Shown: positions 27,267 through 36,624 of the stretch, in pieces
Layout: the number at the start of each line of letters is the position of its first letter
Numbering within the stretch: position 1 is the stretch's first letter
From: Brevinematales bacterium
GTDB lineage: Bacteria; Spirochaetota; Brevinematia; Brevinematales; GWF1-51-8
NCBI GenBank assembly: GCA_020059465.1
Contig: JAGVBZ010000032.1
Coordinates: 1-64,000 of the forward strand
Direction: 5' to 3'
DNA: 64,000 bases
The notes under the pieces: model-generated
The model's database searches: none
What the model saw: the letters and a program-made list of their open reading frames with translations, nothing else
What the model was told of the DNA's origin: nothing
Position numbers and translations under genes: made by a program

Positions 27267-27300
27267 AGAGGGGTTGCTCAACGCAACCCCTCTTTATTTT
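27267..27300 (+). terminator. intrinsic terminator after the HEAT-repeat gene
   Basis: A perfect 11-bp stem, AGAGGGGTTGC (27267-27277) with GCAACCCCTCT (27283-27293), a 5-base loop, and TTTATTTT on the plus strand. It lies between two convergent genes and may also serve the minus-strand gene at 27305. Confidence 0.88.
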
Positions 27301-27729: not shown

Positions 27730-28353
27730 TTAGCTATAATATGAAATCATCGCGCCTAAAATATCCAACTCGCGAATCACATCAATTTCACGGTAATAAA
27801 TATGGCTCGGGAGGTTCAGACGGACGGGTGCGAAATTTAGGATACCCTCTGCCCCGCATTCGATCAGCCTCTCTGCCACTTTCGGGGCGTCATCGGCCGG
27901 AACCGTGATTATGCCGAGCTCGATCTCGTTTTCCGGGGATAAAACCGCGAAATCCTCTATGGGTTTCTCGGCTACGTTTTTCCCGATTTTATGGACATCT
28001 TTATCGAACAGTTTTGTGACACGGTAGTTATTCTTGGAATTGGTGAGATAGCGGAGGATGGCGTTCCCGAGATTTCCCATACCGATGATGGCAACGTTCC
28101 AGATGCGGTGCTTTGCCAGAAAATCCTTGATATTTTCCTGAAGGATGGGTAAAGAATAACCGAAGCCGCGCTTTCCGATTTTTCCGATCAGACTGAGATC
28201 GCGGCGGATTAACGATGAATCGAGATTCAGGATTTTCGACATCTCTTTCGAATCGATAAACTCGCGGCTGGTGCTTTCGATGATCTTATTGATGCAACGG
28301 TTATAAAGCGAAATGCGCTCGAAAACCAGATCACTCAACTGCTTTTCTTTCAT
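27730..28353 (-). CDS. rex: redox-sensing transcriptional repressor Rex
   Basis: A 207-residue repressor that responds to the NADH/NAD+ ratio. The N-terminal winged helix is residues about 1-80 (ISLYNRCINKI, SKEMSKILNLDSSLIRRDLS, GKRGFGYS). The Rossmann domain follows with the nucleotide loop IIGMGNLGNAI (about 92-102), then FDKDVHKIG and the ITVPADDAPKVAERLIECG and ILNFAPVRL blocks. Length and order are typical. Its start lies inside the 3' end of alr (23-base overlap), so the two are co-expressed. I saw no clear Rex operator palindrome in the immediate surroundings. Confidence 0.95.
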   Translation of the reverse strand: MKEKQLSDLVFERISLYNRCINKIIESTSREFIDSKEMSKILNLDSSLIRRDLSLIGKIGKRGFGYSLPILQENIKDFLAKHRIWNVAIIGMGNLGNAILRYLTNSKNNYRVTKLFDKDVHKIGKNVAEKPIEDFAVLSPENEIELGIITVPADDAPKVAERLIECGAEGILNFAPVRLNLPSHIYYREIDVIRELDILGAMISYYS

Positions 28354-29479
28354 CTTCCTTCCTTGTGTAAATCCTGGGTACTCGTTTGGAAACAGCGCAT
28401 GTTACTTCATAAGGAATCCTATGGCAGAGCTTTCCGAAATACTCCACACTTGCCGCGCCCTCGCCGAAAACTGTAACTTCATCGCCGATCTGTATTTTCT
28501 CCGGATTCTGCCCCAGCGAAACCATCATGTAGTCCATGCATATTCTTCCGACATTGGGGTATAGCTTATTCTTAATTCTTACCTTGAGCTTATTAGAAAG
28601 GATCGTAGGGATACCGTCGGCATAACCCACGGGAATAACTGCGATATTTTCGCCATTTTCCTTGATCTTATAGGTGCGAAGGTAGCTGACGGTTTGGCCT
28701 TGTTTCATTTTATTGATTGCCGCGACGCGGGCTTTAAGGCTCATGGAATTCTGGATTTCAGGATTTTTCTGAGAACTATATCCGTATAGGCACAAACCCG
28801 GACGCACCATCGTATACGGATCAGAGAATGAGGACGGAAGGTTGAAAATCCCGGAACTGTTCGATATATGAAAGTGGCGTACTTTTATTCCGAGCCGTTT
28901 GATATCCGCGATAAGCTTGGTAAATTTCAATGTTTGCTGCTCGGAGTATTCGATATCATCGTCCGAACTCGGATAATGAGAGTATATCCCGTCGATAATC
29001 ATTCCTTCGATTTTTGATATCTGTTCGACTTCAAGCAGTGCGTCATCAACAGGAATTCCCAGCCGCCCCATACCGGAATCGATTTTTATATGCACTTTAG
29101 GAAAGACTCCGCGGTAACGGTAGGACTCGCTTAGTTCTCTAGCGTATTCGAAACTGAATACGGTAGGAAACATATTGAACTGAATCAGCTTGCCGAATTC
29201 GGGAGACTCGACAGGCCCGAAAAGAAGAAGCGGGGATGACAGCCCGGCGTTTCGGAGTTCGATCGCCTCGTCGATATTGGATACGGCAAGATATTCCACC
29301 CCAAGCTTCAGGAGTTCCTGCGAAACAGGGATTGCTCCGTGCCCGTAAGCATCCGCCTTAACAACCCCCATAATCATCATATCCGGGGGCAATTTAGATT
29401 TGACATAAAGCAAATTCGCGCGAATCGCATCAATATTGATTTCCGCCCAGACGGGACGGTGAGATTTGTTTAAATACAT
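28331..29479 (-). CDS. alr: alanine racemase
   Basis: A 382-residue PLP enzyme that makes D-alanine for peptidoglycan. The PLP lysine is in MGVVKADAYGHGA (about residues 35-47). The second catalytic Tyr is in GRICMDYMMVSLG (about 310). HIKIDSGMGRLG and VRPGLCLYG are also conserved. Start at 29479, 15 bases after nrnA. Part of the long minus-strand unit that begins at rimP. Confidence 0.96.
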   Translation of the reverse strand: MYLNKSHRPVWAEINIDAIRANLLYVKSKLPPDMMIMGVVKADAYGHGAIPVSQELLKLGVEYLAVSNIDEAIELRNAGLSSPLLLFGPVESPEFGKLIQFNMFPTVFSFEYARELSESYRYRGVFPKVHIKIDSGMGRLGIPVDDALLEVEQISKIEGMIIDGIYSHYPSSDDDIEYSEQQTLKFTKLIADIKRLGIKVRHFHISNSSGIFNLPSSFSDPYTMVRPGLCLYGYSSQKNPEIQNSMSLKARVAAINKMKQGQTVSYLRTYKIKENGENIAVIPVGYADGIPTILSNKLKVRIKNKLYPNVGRICMDYMMVSLGQNPEKIQIGDEVTVFGEGAASVEYFGKLCHRIPYEVTCAVSKRVPRIYTRKEDERKAVE

Positions 29480-29494
29480 CAGCCACTCCCAAAG

Positions 29495-30517
29495 TTAGTG
29501 TTTATATGAAATGATCTCGTCTTGTATCAGTTCTAAAAGCTTATCCTTAAACTCGGTGAATTCCATTTCATCGGTACGGCATCCCGCCGCGCGCATATGT
29601 CCTCCGCCGCCGAGAACTGATGCAATCTTTGCTACATCGACGTCGTACTTGCTGCGTAAACTCGCCCCGAAAAGCTGAGGCTTTTTCTCCTTAATGAGAA
29701 AATACACCGATACTGAATCCAATGTCCCTAAATATTCGATCATGGTATCCGTATCTATATCCGGATACCCGTTAAAATCGTCGTTGAGAAGATAACTGTA
29801 GGCGATAGAATTGTCTTCGGCAAGTTCCATTCGGGATAACATGAGGCTGAGCAATTTTGTATAACCGAGCGACTTCATCATGTTTAACTGGATATGGAAA
29901 TAATTCGGAGATATTCCATGAGATATCAGGTCGGCGGCAATCATATGCACCTCCGGACTGGTCTGGTCGTACCGGAAAAATCCCGTATCGGTGATTATCG
30001 ACGTATATATATCCGACGCGGCCTCCGGTGAAATCCGGATATCATTAATACGGAAGAAATAGTACAGTATTTCCCCAATACTCGATGCTTTTTCATGAAT
30101 AATGTTCAGATCGCCGAAACGGGTGTTTCCCAAATGATGGTCGATATTAACAATTTTTATCGATTGATTGAAAACACCTGCAACATCCCCGATTCTGCCG
30201 ATGTCCCCGGAATCGACCACAATTGCAAGATCGTAGGCGGAAATATCAACTTCTGTTTCACGCAGAGTTTTTAACAAATGCGTGTTTGGAAGGAAGCGCA
30301 AAAACGCGGGAACCGGATCCTCGTCGAGAAGGATGAATTTTTTACCGATGGAATCGAAGTATTCCCCCAGCGCGAGCTGACTACCGATGTTATCCCCGTC
30401 GGGATTGATGTGGCCTGTTACAATAATTCCGCGCGAGGCGAGAATCCATTCTTTCAGGAGCTTTAATTCATCGGCAAGAGAATCACTCAGGTTGAGATTC
30501 ATCGACTGAATCGTCAC
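29495..30517 (-). CDS. nrnA: DHH-family phosphoesterase, NrnA-like (nanoRNase / pAp phosphatase)
   Basis: A 340-residue DHH/DHHA1 protein. Motifs: TGHINPDGDNIGSQLA (about residues 34-49), VVDSGDIGRIG (about 101-111), the defining NIDHHLGN (about 124-131) and the DHHA1 substrate loop GGGGHMRAAG near 305. NrnA degrades 2-5-mer RNAs and dephosphorylates pAp, and often lies next to rbfA and infB, as here. The 5' end overlaps the rbfA 3' end by 35 bases. An internal Met at 30502 (MNLNLSD) is an alternative start that would cut the overlap to about 20. Confidence 0.93.
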   Translation of the reverse strand: MTIQSMNLNLSDSLADELKLLKEWILASRGIIVTGHINPDGDNIGSQLALGEYFDSIGKKFILLDEDPVPAFLRFLPNTHLLKTLRETEVDISAYDLAIVVDSGDIGRIGDVAGVFNQSIKIVNIDHHLGNTRFGDLNIIHEKASSIGEILYYFFRINDIRISPEAASDIYTSIITDTGFFRYDQTSPEVHMIAADLISHGISPNYFHIQLNMMKSLGYTKLLSLMLSRMELAEDNSIAYSYLLNDDFNGYPDIDTDTMIEYLGTLDSVSVYFLIKEKKPQLFGASLRSKYDVDVAKIASVLGGGGHMRAAGCRTDEMEFTEFKDKLLELIQDEIISYKH

Positions 30518-30863
30518 CGGTCATCTCCTTCATTTTGTTAGTTAGACGGACGGAATCCTCGATCATATGAGAACGTTTGAACTCGATCACCGGGGCGAAT
30601 TTCAGCCGAAGATTCTTGCTGACAACCGAACTGATAAAACCGGATGCGGTTTTTAACGCCTCGAGCGTCTTAATATTATGAATTTCATTACTGCTGTAAA
30701 GACTGACTTCGACCTTCATATAGTGCATATCCTTCGATATTTCAGCGTCGAGCACCGAAACCAGGGATAAGAGACGGGGGTCTTTCACTTCAGTCATTAT
30801 AGCCTGGCTGATTTCTTTCATCAGCGTTTTATTCATGCGCTGTATCCTGATTACTTTAGACAT
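30483..30863 (-). CDS. rbfA: 30S ribosome-binding factor A
   Basis: A 126-residue KH-type RNA-binding protein that helps mature the 16S rRNA 5' end and aids cold growth. Typical features are the basic N-terminus (SKVIRIQRMNKTLMKEIS), DPRLLSLVSVLDAEISKDM and the VVSKNLRLKFAPVIEFKRS segment, with an acidic tail DDSVDESQPE. It starts 8 bases after infB and overlaps nrnA. Confidence 0.93.
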   Translation of the reverse strand: MSKVIRIQRMNKTLMKEISQAIMTEVKDPRLLSLVSVLDAEISKDMHYMKVEVSLYSSNEIHNIKTLEALKTASGFISSVVSKNLRLKFAPVIEFKRSHMIEDSVRLTNKMKEMTGDDSVDESQPE

Positions 30864-30871
30864 GCAACCTC

Positions 30872-33268
30872 CTAATTTGTCGCGGGTTTTTTACCGTCGG
30901 TAGAGGAGAACAGCTTTTTCTCCTTTTTCTCAGAGGTGTAGCATTCCAGAATATCACCTTTCTTAAAGTTGTCGAAATTTGTGAACGAGATACCGCAATC
31001 GAAGCCCTGCTGGACTTCGGTCGCATCGTCCTGAAAACGTTTCAGCGCGGACATCTTTCCTTCCCAGTACTGCACGTCTTCACGGTAGAGCCGGACAAGA
31101 TTTCCCTTGCGGATAAACCCTTCTGTAACGAAACACCCCGCGACCTTTCCGATTTCCTTGATACGGAAGACCTCTTTGATTTCCGCCGTACCGATAACAT
31201 TTTCGATCACTTCGGGAGTCAGCATCCCTTCGAGTATCGCCTTTACGAAATCGATGAGTTCGTAAATGATTGCGAAGCGCTTAATCGGAATACCCTCGGA
31301 TTCGGTTTTTTCCTTCGCCATCGTATCGACCCGGACACGGAACGCGAGGACTAAAGTGCGTGATTCTTCGGTGACAGCCGTGGCGGATGCGAGCATAATA
31401 TCGCTTTCCGTTACAGCGCCGATTCCCGCATGAATCACGTTTATTACAATTTCCTCGTTCTGGAGCTTGGAAAGAGAGTATTTAATAGCCTCCACAGACC
31501 CGTCCACATCCGCCTTGACGATAATTTTCAATTCTTTCAGATTGGGAGTGGAAAGTTTATCCATAGCCTGCTGAATCTGTATCTTCTTTATATTCTGGTT
31601 GTCTTCCAACTTCTTGAGATTTTTCCGCTTGGTTGAAATATCCTTGGCGAGTTCCTCGTTTTCTACGACAAAGAATTTATCACCGGCGCTCGGAACATCG
31701 TTGAATCCCATGATCTCGACCGGCTGCGAAGGAAGGCCCACTTCAATTTTATTTCCCTTGTCGTCAAACATCGCACGTACTTTTCCCATAGTCGTACCGA
31801 CGACAAAACAGTCGCCGATCTGAATTTTACCTGTGCGGATAACTACGGTAGCGATCGCGCCCTTTCCGATATCCATCTCGGATTCGACTACGAAGCCGAC
31901 GCCGCGTTTATTTGGGTTGCCCTTGAGTTCCATGACTTCCGCACGAAGCAGGATAGCCTCGAGTAGTTTATCGATACCCGTCTTTTTTAGCGCCGATACC
32001 TCGACAAACTGGGTGTCGCCGCCCCATTCCTCGGACAAAAGACCGTGTTCGGCAAGCTGTTGTTTCAGACGTTCGGGGTTGGCGCCCGGAAGGTCAATTT
32101 TATTTATCGCGACAATGATGGGAACCTTTGCGGCTTTGGAATGGTTGATCGCTTCGACCGTCTGGGGCATTGCGCCTTCGGCGGCGGATACGACAAGAAT
32201 AACGATATCGGTCACTTCGGCGCCGCGCGCGCGCATTGCGGTAAACGCCTCGTGGCCGGGAGTGTCGAGGAATACAAGCTGTCCGCGGGGGGTGCTGACA
32301 CGGTATGCCCCGATATGCTGGGTAATACCGCCGCTCTCATGCTCGACCACATTGGTGTTGCGGATAGCGTCCAGCAGGCTGGTTTTACCGTGGTCGACAT
32401 GTCCCATAACGGTAACAATCGGAGGCCTCGGCGCGAGATCCGCCTCGGTGTCCTCTTCCTCCTTGACGATCACTTCCTCTTTCAGACTCTTTATCTTGAC
32501 TTTACAGTTGAATTCAGACGCAAGAATCACAGCAGTGTCTGCGTCTATATTATCGTTGATTGTAGCGGTAACTCCCAATCCCATGAGTTTCTGGATCAGA
32601 AGACTGGCTTTGATCTGCATCTTTTTTGCCATATCGGAAATCTTGGTAACTTCCCCGATCTCTATTTCATCAGGAATGACCACCTCTCCCTTTTTCTGCT
32701 TCATCATCATGGAATTCTGCATCTTAGAGAGAAAGATCTCTTCCTGTCGCTTTTTTATCTCTTCCTTTGTCAACGGCGCGTCTTTTCTCTTTGCGGCAAC
32801 ATTGCTGAAATGACGGTTGCGGTTAGACTGGTCCTTCCCCGCCGCCGCGCCTGGTGCGGGAGCCGATCCTGGTGCGCCGGGTCTATAACCGCCCTGCTGG
32901 CCGGGAGCGCCGGGCCTATAGCCGCCCTGCTGACCGCCGGGACGGTAACCGCCCTGCTGGCCGCCGGGTCTATAGCCGCCCTGTTGTCCGGGAGCGCCGG
33001 GACGAAATCCGCCCTGCTGCCCTGCGGGACGTCCCGTAAACGGACGCGGAGAGGGCCCTTTGTTTGCAGAAAACTGAGTCTTTTTTACGCCGGCCCCTTC
33101 ATAGGATGTAGGTGCAGGGGTTACCGGCTTCTGCGGCTGAGTATCAGGCAATGCGGTTTCAGGCGTTGTCTCTTTGGTTTCCGATGCGATTTTGGCCGCT
33201 GTAGAATCCGATTTTACTTTCAGCTTGATTATTTTTTTCTTCTTTGCTTCTTGGCCGTTATCAGGCAT
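30872..33268 (-). CDS. infB: translation initiation factor IF-2
   Basis: A 798-residue GTPase that places initiator tRNA on the 30S subunit. The basic N-terminus (KKKKIIKLKVKS) is followed by a Gly/Gln/Tyr/Arg-Pro repeat region (83-133), an IF2-N domain (about 195-250), then the GTPase with GHVDHGKTSLLD (G1), DTPGHEAF (G3) and NKIDLPGAN (G4) at about 290-455, and C-terminal domains II-IV ending in DFKKGDILECY-type sequence. Length is normal; the repeat region is the unusual part. Between nusA (37 bases) and rbfA (8 bases). Confidence 0.96.
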   Translation of the reverse strand: MPDNGQEAKKKKIIKLKVKSDSTAAKIASETKETTPETALPDTQPQKPVTPAPTSYEGAGVKKTQFSANKGPSPRPFTGRPAGQQGGFRPGAPGQQGGYRPGGQQGGYRPGGQQGGYRPGAPGQQGGYRPGAPGSAPAPGAAAGKDQSNRNRHFSNVAAKRKDAPLTKEEIKKRQEEIFLSKMQNSMMMKQKKGEVVIPDEIEIGEVTKISDMAKKMQIKASLLIQKLMGLGVTATINDNIDADTAVILASEFNCKVKIKSLKEEVIVKEEEDTEADLAPRPPIVTVMGHVDHGKTSLLDAIRNTNVVEHESGGITQHIGAYRVSTPRGQLVFLDTPGHEAFTAMRARGAEVTDIVILVVSAAEGAMPQTVEAINHSKAAKVPIIVAINKIDLPGANPERLKQQLAEHGLLSEEWGGDTQFVEVSALKKTGIDKLLEAILLRAEVMELKGNPNKRGVGFVVESEMDIGKGAIATVVIRTGKIQIGDCFVVGTTMGKVRAMFDDKGNKIEVGLPSQPVEIMGFNDVPSAGDKFFVVENEELAKDISTKRKNLKKLEDNQNIKKIQIQQAMDKLSTPNLKELKIIVKADVDGSVEAIKYSLSKLQNEEIVINVIHAGIGAVTESDIMLASATAVTEESRTLVLAFRVRVDTMAKEKTESEGIPIKRFAIIYELIDFVKAILEGMLTPEVIENVIGTAEIKEVFRIKEIGKVAGCFVTEGFIRKGNLVRLYREDVQYWEGKMSALKRFQDDATEVQQGFDCGISFTNFDNFKKGDILECYTSEKKEKKLFSSTDGKKPATN
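32870..33022 (-). repeat. infB: in-frame tandem repeats in infB (GQQGGYRPG units)
   Basis: Five imperfect repeats of 27 or 33 bases encode GQQGG(Y/F)RPG, three of them extended by AP, at IF-2 residues 83-133. The DNA copies differ at several third positions, so they are not a recent exact expansion. Confidence 0.93.
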
Positions 33269-33305: not shown

Positions 33306-34661
33306 TTACGCTTCCTCTTCTTCTATTTCTACATTTGTTTCTATCACTTTCCAGATTTCCATCGCACTGTCAAGAGAAATCCCGCAGCGGTTAGCGAGTT
33401 CTTCAATTGAAAATTCCACGATTTCCACAACGTCTTCAAACCCAGCTGTTCTGAGTATATCCATCTGCTCGACCGTAAACGGAAGCATATCGATCGGGAT
33501 CTTCTCTTCCTCGATCACCTCGACTTCCTCTGTTTCGGAAGTGATGCCCAGAATCTGGTCAACCTGTCTCTGTTTCTCCTGTATCTCAACCTCGAATTCG
33601 GAATAGGGACGGAAATGAATTTTCCAACCGGTGACCTTTTCGATCATCTTCTGGTGAGACCCGCCCTTCCCGATAAGCGGCGCGAGAAACTCGTCCGCGA
33701 CAACTATATGCGCCTCTCTTTTATCCATATCAAGGTCAATATTATATACCTCGGCGATACGCGCCTTTAGGACACGGCTGGCCTTGACGGCGTTGGATAT
33801 CAGTTGACGGGGTTCCTCGTTCCAACGGATGATCTCGATGCGCTCGCTGCCCAGTTCGCTGCGGATCGGCTTGATACGCGATCCCTGCTTCCCGACTGTC
33901 ACGCTGATGGGGTCGATCGAATCGTTGATCGTATCGATGACCACCTTGCTGACTTCGCCGGGTTTACGCGCGATGGCGCGGATGGTAAACGTGCTGTCGT
34001 TGATCTCGGGGATATTCAGGCGCAGAAGTTCTTTTACAAATTCTTCGCGCTTGCGGGAAAGTATCAGTTGCGATTCGCCCTTCCGGGAGAATTGCTTCGC
34101 CTCGAGAAGATAAAACTTGACGTTTTCGCCGGTATCGAACGATTCGTCCGGGATACATTCGCTATACGGCAGGAACGCCTCGACTCCCCGCGGTTCGAGG
34201 GAAATAAAGTATCCGCCCGAACGGGAATCGGTCATCGATTTGACCTTGCCGACAAAGACCTGACCGGTCTTATTCGCGAACTCGTTATATAGAATATCCT
34301 TCTGGATTTCGTTTACTCGTTGTTTCAGTACCTGCTTAACAATCTGCGCGATCTGCCTTCCGAATTCGGAAACGTCGATAGGTATTTTTACAGTATCTCC
34401 CGGTTCGAGGGACTTTTTCTTGGTATACTGCATCCCTTCTTCCGCAGAAATCTGTAAAACCTCGTCCTCAATCGTTTCGGCGACTTCTCTTAACTGGAAC
34501 ATATTGATTTTTTTATCGATTTTTACCTCGACATTTTCGTAGGTTTTCCCATACTTTTTCTTATAAGCCGTGCTCATGGCCTCTTTTAATATTTGTTCCG
34601 CTAATTCTTCGGATATTTTGTTTTCTTTTGCAAATTCTTCGATGATATCACCAAGCGCCAC
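33306..34661 (-). CDS. nusA: transcription termination/antitermination factor NusA
   Basis: A 451-residue RNA-polymerase-binding protein. N-terminal domain (about 1-125), S1 domain (about 133-200, KTGQVFVGKVKSMTDSRSGGYFISL), KH1 and KH2 (about 205-345, including SVGKQGSRIK-like TVGKQGSRIKPI and LIGKGGSHQKMI), and one C-terminal helix-hairpin-helix-like acidic repeat (about 390-445, ending EEEEA). E. coli NusA has two such C-terminal repeats; one is common elsewhere. It starts 12 bases after rimP. NusA may act on the leader hairpin of its own operon. Confidence 0.95.
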   Translation of the reverse strand: MALGDIIEEFAKENKISEELAEQILKEAMSTAYKKKYGKTYENVEVKIDKKINMFQLREVAETIEDEVLQISAEEGMQYTKKKSLEPGDTVKIPIDVSEFGRQIAQIVKQVLKQRVNEIQKDILYNEFANKTGQVFVGKVKSMTDSRSGGYFISLEPRGVEAFLPYSECIPDESFDTGENVKFYLLEAKQFSRKGESQLILSRKREEFVKELLRLNIPEINDSTFTIRAIARKPGEVSKVVIDTINDSIDPISVTVGKQGSRIKPIRSELGSERIEIIRWNEEPRQLISNAVKASRVLKARIAEVYNIDLDMDKREAHIVVADEFLAPLIGKGGSHQKMIEKVTGWKIHFRPYSEFEVEIQEKQRQVDQILGITSETEEVEVIEEEKIPIDMLPFTVEQMDILRTAGFEDVVEIVEFSIEELANRCGISLDSAMEIWKVIETNVEIEEEEA

Positions 34662-34673
34662 CGTTTTCCTCCT

Positions 34674-35150
34674 TTATAAGTATTTTTTTATATCCAAATA
34701 TAATTGTGCTTTCGAGATGTCGGTCAGAGGAATAGTCAGTTCCTTATCGTCCGATTTCACCCGGAGTTCGCTGCCGTCATAGGCTTCGAGATTCCCGATA
34801 ATGACATTATCCTTCAACCCGTAATCTGCGGGGTTTTTAACCACAACCCGTACCGCTCTCCCCGTAAAATGCGCGTATTCCTTTTTATGCGAAATCTCGC
34901 GCTCAAGTCCGGGCGATTCGACCGTCAGATGATACGATCCGCCGATAAAATCCTCCAGATCGAGGCGCTGGGACAATACCCGTGAAACCTTTTCACAGTC
35001 ATTCGTCGAAATATCGCGTTCCTTGTGATGGATAACCACCCGCAATGTACTGCTGGCTTTACCGTATACCCACAAGCACTCGACCATAATAAATCCCATA
35101 GTCTCGACTGTTTCTAAAACCAGTTTATTCAGTTTTTCACGGAACATCAT
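34674..35150 (-). CDS. rimP: ribosome maturation factor RimP
   Basis: A 158-residue 30S assembly factor. It has the two-domain arrangement (N-terminal alpha/beta domain to about 80, C-terminal SH3-like domain to the end), with RVVIHHKERDISTNDCEKVSR and GSYHLTVESPGLEREI (the diagnostic SPGL motif). The second codon is also ATG (35147), better spaced from AAAAGGA at 35161-35155, so the true start may be either. First gene of the rimP-nusA-infB-rbfA-nrnA-alr-rex series. Confidence 0.93.
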   Translation of the reverse strand: MMFREKLNKLVLETVETMGFIMVECLWVYGKASSTLRVVIHHKERDISTNDCEKVSRVLSQRLDLEDFIGGSYHLTVESPGLEREISHKKEYAHFTGRAVRVVVKNPADYGLKDNVIIGNLEAYDGSELRVKSDDKELTIPLTDISKAQLYLDIKKYL

Positions 35151-35154
35151 GCAA

Positions 35155-35195
35155 TCCTTTTGCTAACAAAAAAGGAGCTGCAAAACAGCTCCTTT
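35155..35195 (-). promoter_or_regulatory. rimP: terminator hairpin in the rimP leader, possible attenuator
   Basis: On the minus strand AAAGGAGCTG (35195 side of the stem) pairs with CAGCTCCTTT over 10 bp (35195-35186 with 35180-35171) around a 5-base loop, then runs into a T tract and TGTTAGC. The 3' arm TCCTTTT (35176-35170) can instead pair with AAAAGGA (35161-35155), the rimP ribosome-binding site. The hairpin lies between a consensus promoter and the rimP start, so it is in the leader rather than at a gene end. No plus-strand gene could use it. Confidence 0.72.
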
Positions 35196-35229
35196 ATTAA
35201 TTCATCAGGTTAATTTCAATCTCGCAATT

Positions 35230-35258
35230 ATTATAACCGGAACAAAGGGATTTGTCAA
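35230..35258 (-). promoter_or_regulatory. rimP: consensus sigma70 promoter of the rimP operon
   Basis: On the minus strand TTGACA (35258-35253), exactly 17 bases, then TATAAT (35235-35230). Both hexamers are perfect. The predicted start near 35223 gives a leader of about 70 bases. Confidence 0.85.
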
Positions 35259-35344: not shown

Positions 35345-35370
35345 ATTCCAAGCATATTTCAAGGGTGGTT

Positions 35371-36624
35371 ATGAAAACAATCGTACTGCTTTTTATAATT
35401 TTTCCATTGACCCTTCATTCATTGATATTTATCCCGATGGACGATACCCAGCGGAATCACCTGAAAGCATACGGTATGGCGTATTTCGCGCTGAAGCAAG
35501 GTATTCAGGTGAAGTGGCTCCTGAATTACCGGGGCGGCAGTTTTGTCGTCATGAGCGGTTCCACGGTAATTGCCGAATGGGGGCTGCTGCGGAATGTGGC
35601 GAACCAATCCATCAGCGATCAGGAATTCGCATCGATGAAAGCGGTAATCGAGAAAGAAAACATGAATATCGTCGATCTGGATAAAGCCCCGATTGTCGCG
35701 GTATACGCCCCGCCGTGGACAGCCCCGTGGGACGACGCGGTGACTCTCGTGCTCGAATATGCGGAAATCCCCTATACCCGAATCTGGGACCAAGAGGTGA
35801 TAGGCGGATTATTGACCCCGGAGAATTTCGATTGGCTCCATCTTCATCATGAGGATTTTACGGGACAATTCGGAAAATTCTGGTTTAATTACGGCGGAGA
35901 GAAATGGTATATTGAACAGGTCGCGCTGTATCAGAAAATCGCCGCATCGTTAGGGTTTAAAAGTGTGCAGGATGAGAAGAAAGCGGTAGCCGCGAAAATC
36001 CGGAAGTACGTTGTAGACGGGGGATTTATGTTCGCAATGTGCTCCGCGACCGATACCCTCGATATCGCGCTCGCCTGCCAGGATTTCGATATTGTTCCCG
36101 CGCAGATCGACGGGACATCCTTCGATTCCGCATGGCCGCAGAAAATCAATTACGAGAGTACTCTCGCCTTCGAGAAATTCCAACTGATTACCGAACCCTA
36201 TATTTACGAATATTCCGATATCGATGTCAATCCCACAGTGGAAAATATTTATTCGACACCTTTCTATTTCCGTCTGAACGATTTCTCCGCGAAGTACGAC
36301 GTGATCCCGACGATGCTGATACAGGATCATAAGAACCTTGTCAAAGGATTTTTAGGGCAGACTACCGGGTTCCAAAAGTACCTGATAAAGAAGGACATTA
36401 CTATACTTGCGGCCGTACAGGGTAAGAGTTGGGTGAATTATATTCACGGCGACCGCGGTAAGGGAACGTTTACATTCTTCGCCGGGCACGACCCGGAGGA
36501 CTACGCTCATCAGGTCGGCGATCCGCCTACCAATCTCGACCTGTTTCCCAATTCCCCGGGATACCGCCTGATCCTGAATAATATTTTATTTCCGGCGGCG
36601 AAAACCAAGAAAAAGAAAACGTAA
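35371..36624 (+). CDS. large exported protein of a family often misnamed asparagine synthetase B
   Basis: A 417-residue protein with a short signal peptide (MKTIVLLFIIFPLTLHS). Start ATG 35371, with AAGGGTGG just upstream; the GTG at 35365 is also in frame. The sequence IPMDDTQRNHLKAYGMAY, VKWLLNYRGGSF, PWDDAVTLVLEYAEIPY, WLHLHHEDFTGQ, GGGFMFAMCSATD-like (DGGFMFAMCSATDT) and GHDPEDYAHQVG fits a family common in Bacteroidota whose database label is asparagine synthetase B. I see no glutamine amidotransferase Cys1 and no ATP pyrophosphatase motif, so that label is unsupported. The mid region may be a class I amidotransferase-like alpha/beta fold. Function unknown. Confidence 0.82.
   Translation: MKTIVLLFIIFPLTLHSLIFIPMDDTQRNHLKAYGMAYFALKQGIQVKWLLNYRGGSFVVMSGSTVIAEWGLLRNVANQSISDQEFASMKAVIEKENMNIVDLDKAPIVAVYAPPWTAPWDDAVTLVLEYAEIPYTRIWDQEVIGGLLTPENFDWLHLHHEDFTGQFGKFWFNYGGEKWYIEQVALYQKIAASLGFKSVQDEKKAVAAKIRKYVVDGGFMFAMCSATDTLDIALACQDFDIVPAQIDGTSFDSAWPQKINYESTLAFEKFQLITEPYIYEYSDIDVNPTVENIYSTPFYFRLNDFSAKYDVIPTMLIQDHKNLVKGFLGQTTGFQKYLIKKDITILAAVQGKSWVNYIHGDRGKGTFTFFAGHDPEDYAHQVGDPPTNLDLFPNSPGYRLILNNILFPAAKTKKKKT

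Follow-up and report, generated by a model that had tools for sequence, protein, structure and literature searches.

Attenuation at rimP/nusA is an established principle in Firmicutes and Gammaproteobacteria. The rimP-leader described by Naville and Gautheret (2010) is the most widespread predicted attenuator; its terminator lies 4 to 130 nt from the start codon, it has a conserved stem of the form GGGc...gCCC and no visible antiterminator, and NusA was proposed as its effector (PMC2965389). In B. subtilis, according to the account of Mondal et al. (2016) given in PMC12288461, NusA is autoregulated via NusA-stimulated termination in the 5' leader. In S. agalactiae, RNA-seq places termination in the leader of gbs0413-gbs0418 (rimP-nusA-infB) 31 nt after the start; the short and long RNAs share one start, and NusA feedback was proposed (PMC4448216). 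In E. coli, two terminators precede rimP (PMC6511841). As for the spirochetes, the word spirochaete is absent from the main text of PMC2965389, and the main text of a Borrelia term-seq paper, which states that NusA's part in termination still awaits testing in Borrelia, does not mention a rimP or nusA leader (PMC10319736).

Here we consider the rimP leader of a Brevinematales spirochete (GWF1_51_8/GWF1_49_6 genus), contained in a window of 64,000 nucleotides (the whole stretch of DNA analyzed), and its counterparts across the Spirochaetota. Like the rimP-leader, the window element places a terminator between promoter and rimP, 21 nt from the gene and thus within the 4- to 130-nt range, and combines a conserved stem sequence with the lack of a visible antiterminator. 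In contrast, GGGc...gCCC is absent: the stem is AAAGGAGCTG/CAGCTCCTTT, with the core GGAGCTG/CAGCTCC, and the phylum has GAGTCG or GAGTGG. The gammaproteobacterial rimP leader in Rfam, RF01770, concerns the same gene and the same position. That model (102 positions, gathering score 47 bits) matched E. coli, one of our controls; it matched neither the window nor, at E <= 0.001, the genome, and 13 lineage genomes gave nothing above the cut-off. Because both the GGGc...gCCC motif and RF01770 fail, we do not count the element as a formal rimP-leader member but as a lineage-specific variant, one that would nonetheless work alike. It shares with B. subtilis an intrinsic terminator in the leader of a NusA-encoding operon, the difference being that NusA dependence, as PMC12288461 relates it, was demonstrated there and is proposed by analogy here. 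It shares with S. agalactiae a very short leader with a terminator near the start of the same operon, the phylum being different and the evidence being RNA-seq there and sequence here.

Layout of the leader and operon

On the minus strand, the order is promoter, terminator, and rimP-nusA-infB-rbfA (Table 1). The preliminary description had reported a perfect TTGACA-17-TATAAT promoter and, between it and rimP, a 10-bp stem with a U tract. Both are there: the promoter is the only exact TTGACA-N17-TATAAT site in the 64 kb, and the 10-bp hairpin with its T6 spans 35195-35168, exactly where it had been placed. The gene order, with nusA second, was also read correctly, and Pfam confirms the gene identities. 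When up to one mismatch is allowed, the window holds 6 promoter sites, against 0.25 expected in shuffles.

Table 1. Features of the rimP leader and operon, in window coordinates
Feature	Position	Strand	Details
Sigma-70 promoter TTGACA-17-TATAAT	35258-35230	minus	12/12 match
Start site (predicted)	G35223/A35222	minus	
Terminator stem-loop	35195-35171	minus	5' arm 35195-35186 AAAGGAGCTG; loop 35185-35181 TTTTG; 3' arm 35180-35171 CAGCTCCTTT
U tract T6	35173-35168	minus	first three Ts also pair with AAA
Leader RNA 3' end (predicted)	at U tract 35173-35168	minus	RNA length ~55-59 nt
rimP ribosome-binding site AAAAGGA	35161-35155	minus	complementary to UCCUUUU in the 3' arm of the hairpin
rimP	34674-35150	minus	start ATG 35150 or 35147; Pfam PF02576 RimP_N, PF17384
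nusA	33306-34661	minus	proposed trans-acting feedback factor; Pfam PF08529 NusA_N, PF13184 KH_5
infB (IF2)	30872-33268	minus	Pfam IF2_N, IF-2, GTP_EFTU
rbfA	30483-30863	minus	Pfam PF02033

The end of the -10 element lies 34 nt from the hairpin, and the hairpin lies 21 nt from the rimP ATG. The 58-nt leader has a minimum free energy (MFE) of -16.4 kcal/mol (z = -4.3), and 0 of 200 shuffles were equally good. The 3.19-Mb genome holds a single copy of this exact stem. The gene 5' of the leader (35365-36624) is divergent, on the plus strand, which rules out the hairpin as a neighbor's 3' terminator and means that transcription of rimP from this promoter must read through it. Among window intergenic regions with a divergent upstream gene and a same-strand downstream gene, only the rimP leader holds a strong hairpin with a T tract.

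Several observations concern the surroundings. The divergent gene encodes a 419-aa protein without a Pfam match, whose hydrophobic N-terminal stretch suggests export. Within the operon, the N-terminal third of the infB product carries an IF2 linker with tandem GQQGGYRPG-type repeats. Farther downstream (27730-30517, minus strand), the translation operon appears to extend via a DHH-family gene and alr (alanine racemase) to a Rex-like redox repressor gene (rex), these open reading frames (ORFs) being overlapping or closely spaced and on the same strand as rimP. At 27267-27293, a strong bidirectional terminator, AGAGGGGTTGC...GCAACCCCTCT, separates convergent genes and is an ordinary one.

Conservation across the Spirochaetota

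We compared the rimP leaders of 120 genomes from 49 families of the phylum, seeking a hairpin in the 220 nt that precede rimP; for some distant genomes we placed the start codon by extrapolating from RimP alignments, which makes gene distances throughout this comparison approximate. A strong hairpin with a T tract lies 5' of rimP in 96 of the 120 genomes and in 39 of the 49 families. This presence, 80% against 0.9% in dinucleotide shuffles, is the independent evidence for conservation. On the antisense strand, 26 of 120 leaders gave a hairpin with a T tract, because a palindromic stem between a run of A and a run of T looks like a terminator from either strand. Most hairpin leaders are preceded by a sigma-70-like promoter, with a median distance of 29 nt from the -10 element to the stem, and the predicted terminated RNA has a median length of 52 nt (range, 32 to 78). 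Outside the stem, leader sequence shows no conservation across families.

The preliminary description had called for a search of related genomes for compensatory changes, and the terminator stem is indeed conserved in this way: among 56 aligned leaders, changes on both sides occur at 9 of the 10 stem pairs, with a covariation score of 0.438 (0.209 after shuffling, no more than 0.187 after sliding), although these leaders had been preselected for having a hairpin, which biases both the pairing percentage and the covariation count. For example, the GGAGCTG/CAGCTCC of the window corresponds to GGAGTCG/CGACTCC elsewhere in the order. In total, the sequence comparison supports a putative attenuator in the rimP-nusA-infB leader whose conservation across the phylum includes compensatory changes.

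Beyond the pairing, the letters themselves recur. The arms read GAGTCG/CGACTC or GAGTGG/CCACTC across the phylum (37 of the 96 leaders have GAGTCG and 20 have GAGTGG, the others being related) and GGAGCTG/CAGCTCC in the window genus, all four genomes of which keep both this stem and TTGACA-17-TATAAT; the window terminator is identical in two of them (L002 and L003) and nearly so in L004. A strict GAGTCG pattern found 22 matches in the 120 genomes, with 12 within 130 nt upstream of rimP, 1 at 327 nt upstream of rimP, 5 elsewhere, and 4 unplaced; a reversed control pattern found none. When a covariance model made from these leaders was run on the genome of the window, the rimP leader came out on top, and the next matches examined there are ordinary 3' terminators of other genes, with different stems.

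The strong hairpin is absent from 24 of the 120 leaders, including 5 of 5 in a sister group (f5) and 3 of 3 in another family (f9); the device is therefore dispensable in some lineages. In the f5 genomes (L012-L016, same class), rimP has no terminator and a TATAAT-like box stands about 10 to 15 nt before a plausible ATG, so that the rimP mRNA may have little or no leader.

Proposed mechanism and alternative explanations

We posit a minimal leader attenuator. RNA polymerase would start at about 35223, make about 28 nt, and then reach the intrinsic terminator about 55 to 59 nt from the start. Some polymerases would end transcription at this point, releasing a short leader RNA, and the remaining ones would continue into rimP-nusA-infB-rbfA and beyond. 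What would set the fraction that reads through? We propose the termination-promoting strength of an elongation factor, most likely NusA, the product of the second gene: high NusA would cause more termination, and low NusA would allow more operon expression. In this model, neither an antiterminator nor a leader peptide nor a ribosome-site switch would be needed. We consider a minimal leader attenuator with NusA-set read-through probable. The stem with its T6 looks strong, and sequence proves neither partial read-through nor NusA dependence; it is by analogy with the described systems that we infer partial termination in vivo and NusA as the sensor.

Does the leader contain anything more than a terminator? 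In the window, the RNA between the start site and the last base of the 5' arm folds at only -1.2 kcal/mol, and values in the genus run from -1.2 to -2.3 kcal/mol; because this RNA folds weakly and there is too little of it, upstream RNA can provide no antiterminator in the window genus. The leader is more structured in some distant families (f8, f12, and f30). No conserved leader peptide was found in the genus, ATGAATTAA being present in three members and absent in the fourth, and two candidates, ATG-AAT-TAA and a TTG frame with six codons inside the stem, were rejected as not conserved. More broadly, ORFs of at least 5 codons starting with ATG occur in 8 of 65 leaders, with no conserved short ORF overlapping the terminator.

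The conservation of the stem's letters raises a more specific idea, which we hold tentatively and find rather doubtful: the GAGUSG stem may be a sequence-specific recognition element read by a trans-acting operon protein (NusA, or RimP/IF2), controlling termination within about 32 to 78 nt of the start. If the reader were RimP, IF2, or a ribosomal factor or ribosome-assembly signal, binding to the stem in the nascent RNA would change termination in place of NusA. That the stem sequence is conserved beyond its pairing and that 12 of the 22 strict GAGTCG matches concentrate at rimP are both consistent with such a reader. However, NusA also contacts hairpin RNA, so that sequence conservation cannot separate the two, and the known precedents point to NusA. 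We think a reader other than NusA unlikely.

Could the leader work with no sensor at all, as a passive attenuator with a fixed low read-through or as a stabilizer of the mRNA 5' end? Structure alone would suffice for this, and the leader shows no sensor element. Yet a weaker promoter could set a fixed level, and protection alone would not need the T tract, which is conserved alongside the stem; moreover, NusA feedback at the same operon is documented elsewhere, in the accounts given in PMC12288461 and PMC4448216. A passive leader seems to us quite improbable next to these points.

The preliminary description had gone further than a terminator, proposing that the leader switches between the terminator and a second hairpin that sequesters the ribosome-binding site, both built on the same 3' arm. 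The complementarity of UCCUUUU and AAAAGGA on which this relied is literally present over 7 nt (35176-35170 with 35161-35155) and can be extended to 12 bp with one bulge (UGCAG/UUGCA), giving an alternative hairpin at 35182-35150. The predicted energies speak against its use: the whole leader has an MFE of -24.7 kcal/mol, compared with -19.8 kcal/mol when the alternative pairing is forced and -14.7 kcal/mol when the terminator is forbidden, and the 3' arm has a predicted occupancy by downstream pairing of 0.0009 in the window and of 0.0016, 0.045, and 0.0015 in three same-genus leaders. Nor is the ribosome-site stem conserved in relatives, where this occupancy never exceeds 0.045 and where, in L002 and L003, the ribosome-binding site is shifted by about 45 to 65 nt. 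The extra sequence between terminator and ribosome-binding site in these two genomes contains TGTCATCCTGAGC...GAAGGGTGA and resembles a dispersed repeat. Because the 5' arm, AAAGGAG, is Shine-Dalgarno-like and its partner resembles an anti-Shine-Dalgarno sequence, the 3' arm can pair with any ribosome-binding site, and the complementarity noted here is a trivial consequence of that 5' arm. The terminator half of the proposal thus stands, whereas the second hairpin, 5 to 10 kcal/mol less stable, we judge from these folding predictions not to be functional, and a switch between the two is highly improbable. Finally, although promoter and terminator make a complete small transcription unit, so that the ~57-nt transcript might be an independent small RNA (sRNA) with rimP having its own promoter, the 21-nt gap leaves no room for a second promoter, the leader outside the stem is not conserved across families, and an Rfam search of the leader gave only chance-level sRNA matches, so an sRNA gene is hardly credible and largely excluded.

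Implications

The phylum-wide extent of this leader and its stem motif appear to be undescribed in the literature that we searched, a search of limited scope. A minimal attenuator with NusA-set read-through would extend the rimP/nusA leader attenuator across the Spirochaetota, a phylum in which little work exists on factor-assisted intrinsic termination. If the GAGUSG stem is indeed read by its sequence, the spirochete leader would be a form of the rimP-leader particular to this phylum. The stem motif also yields a clear prediction, namely a leader RNA of some 50 nt, the amount of which would track NusA.
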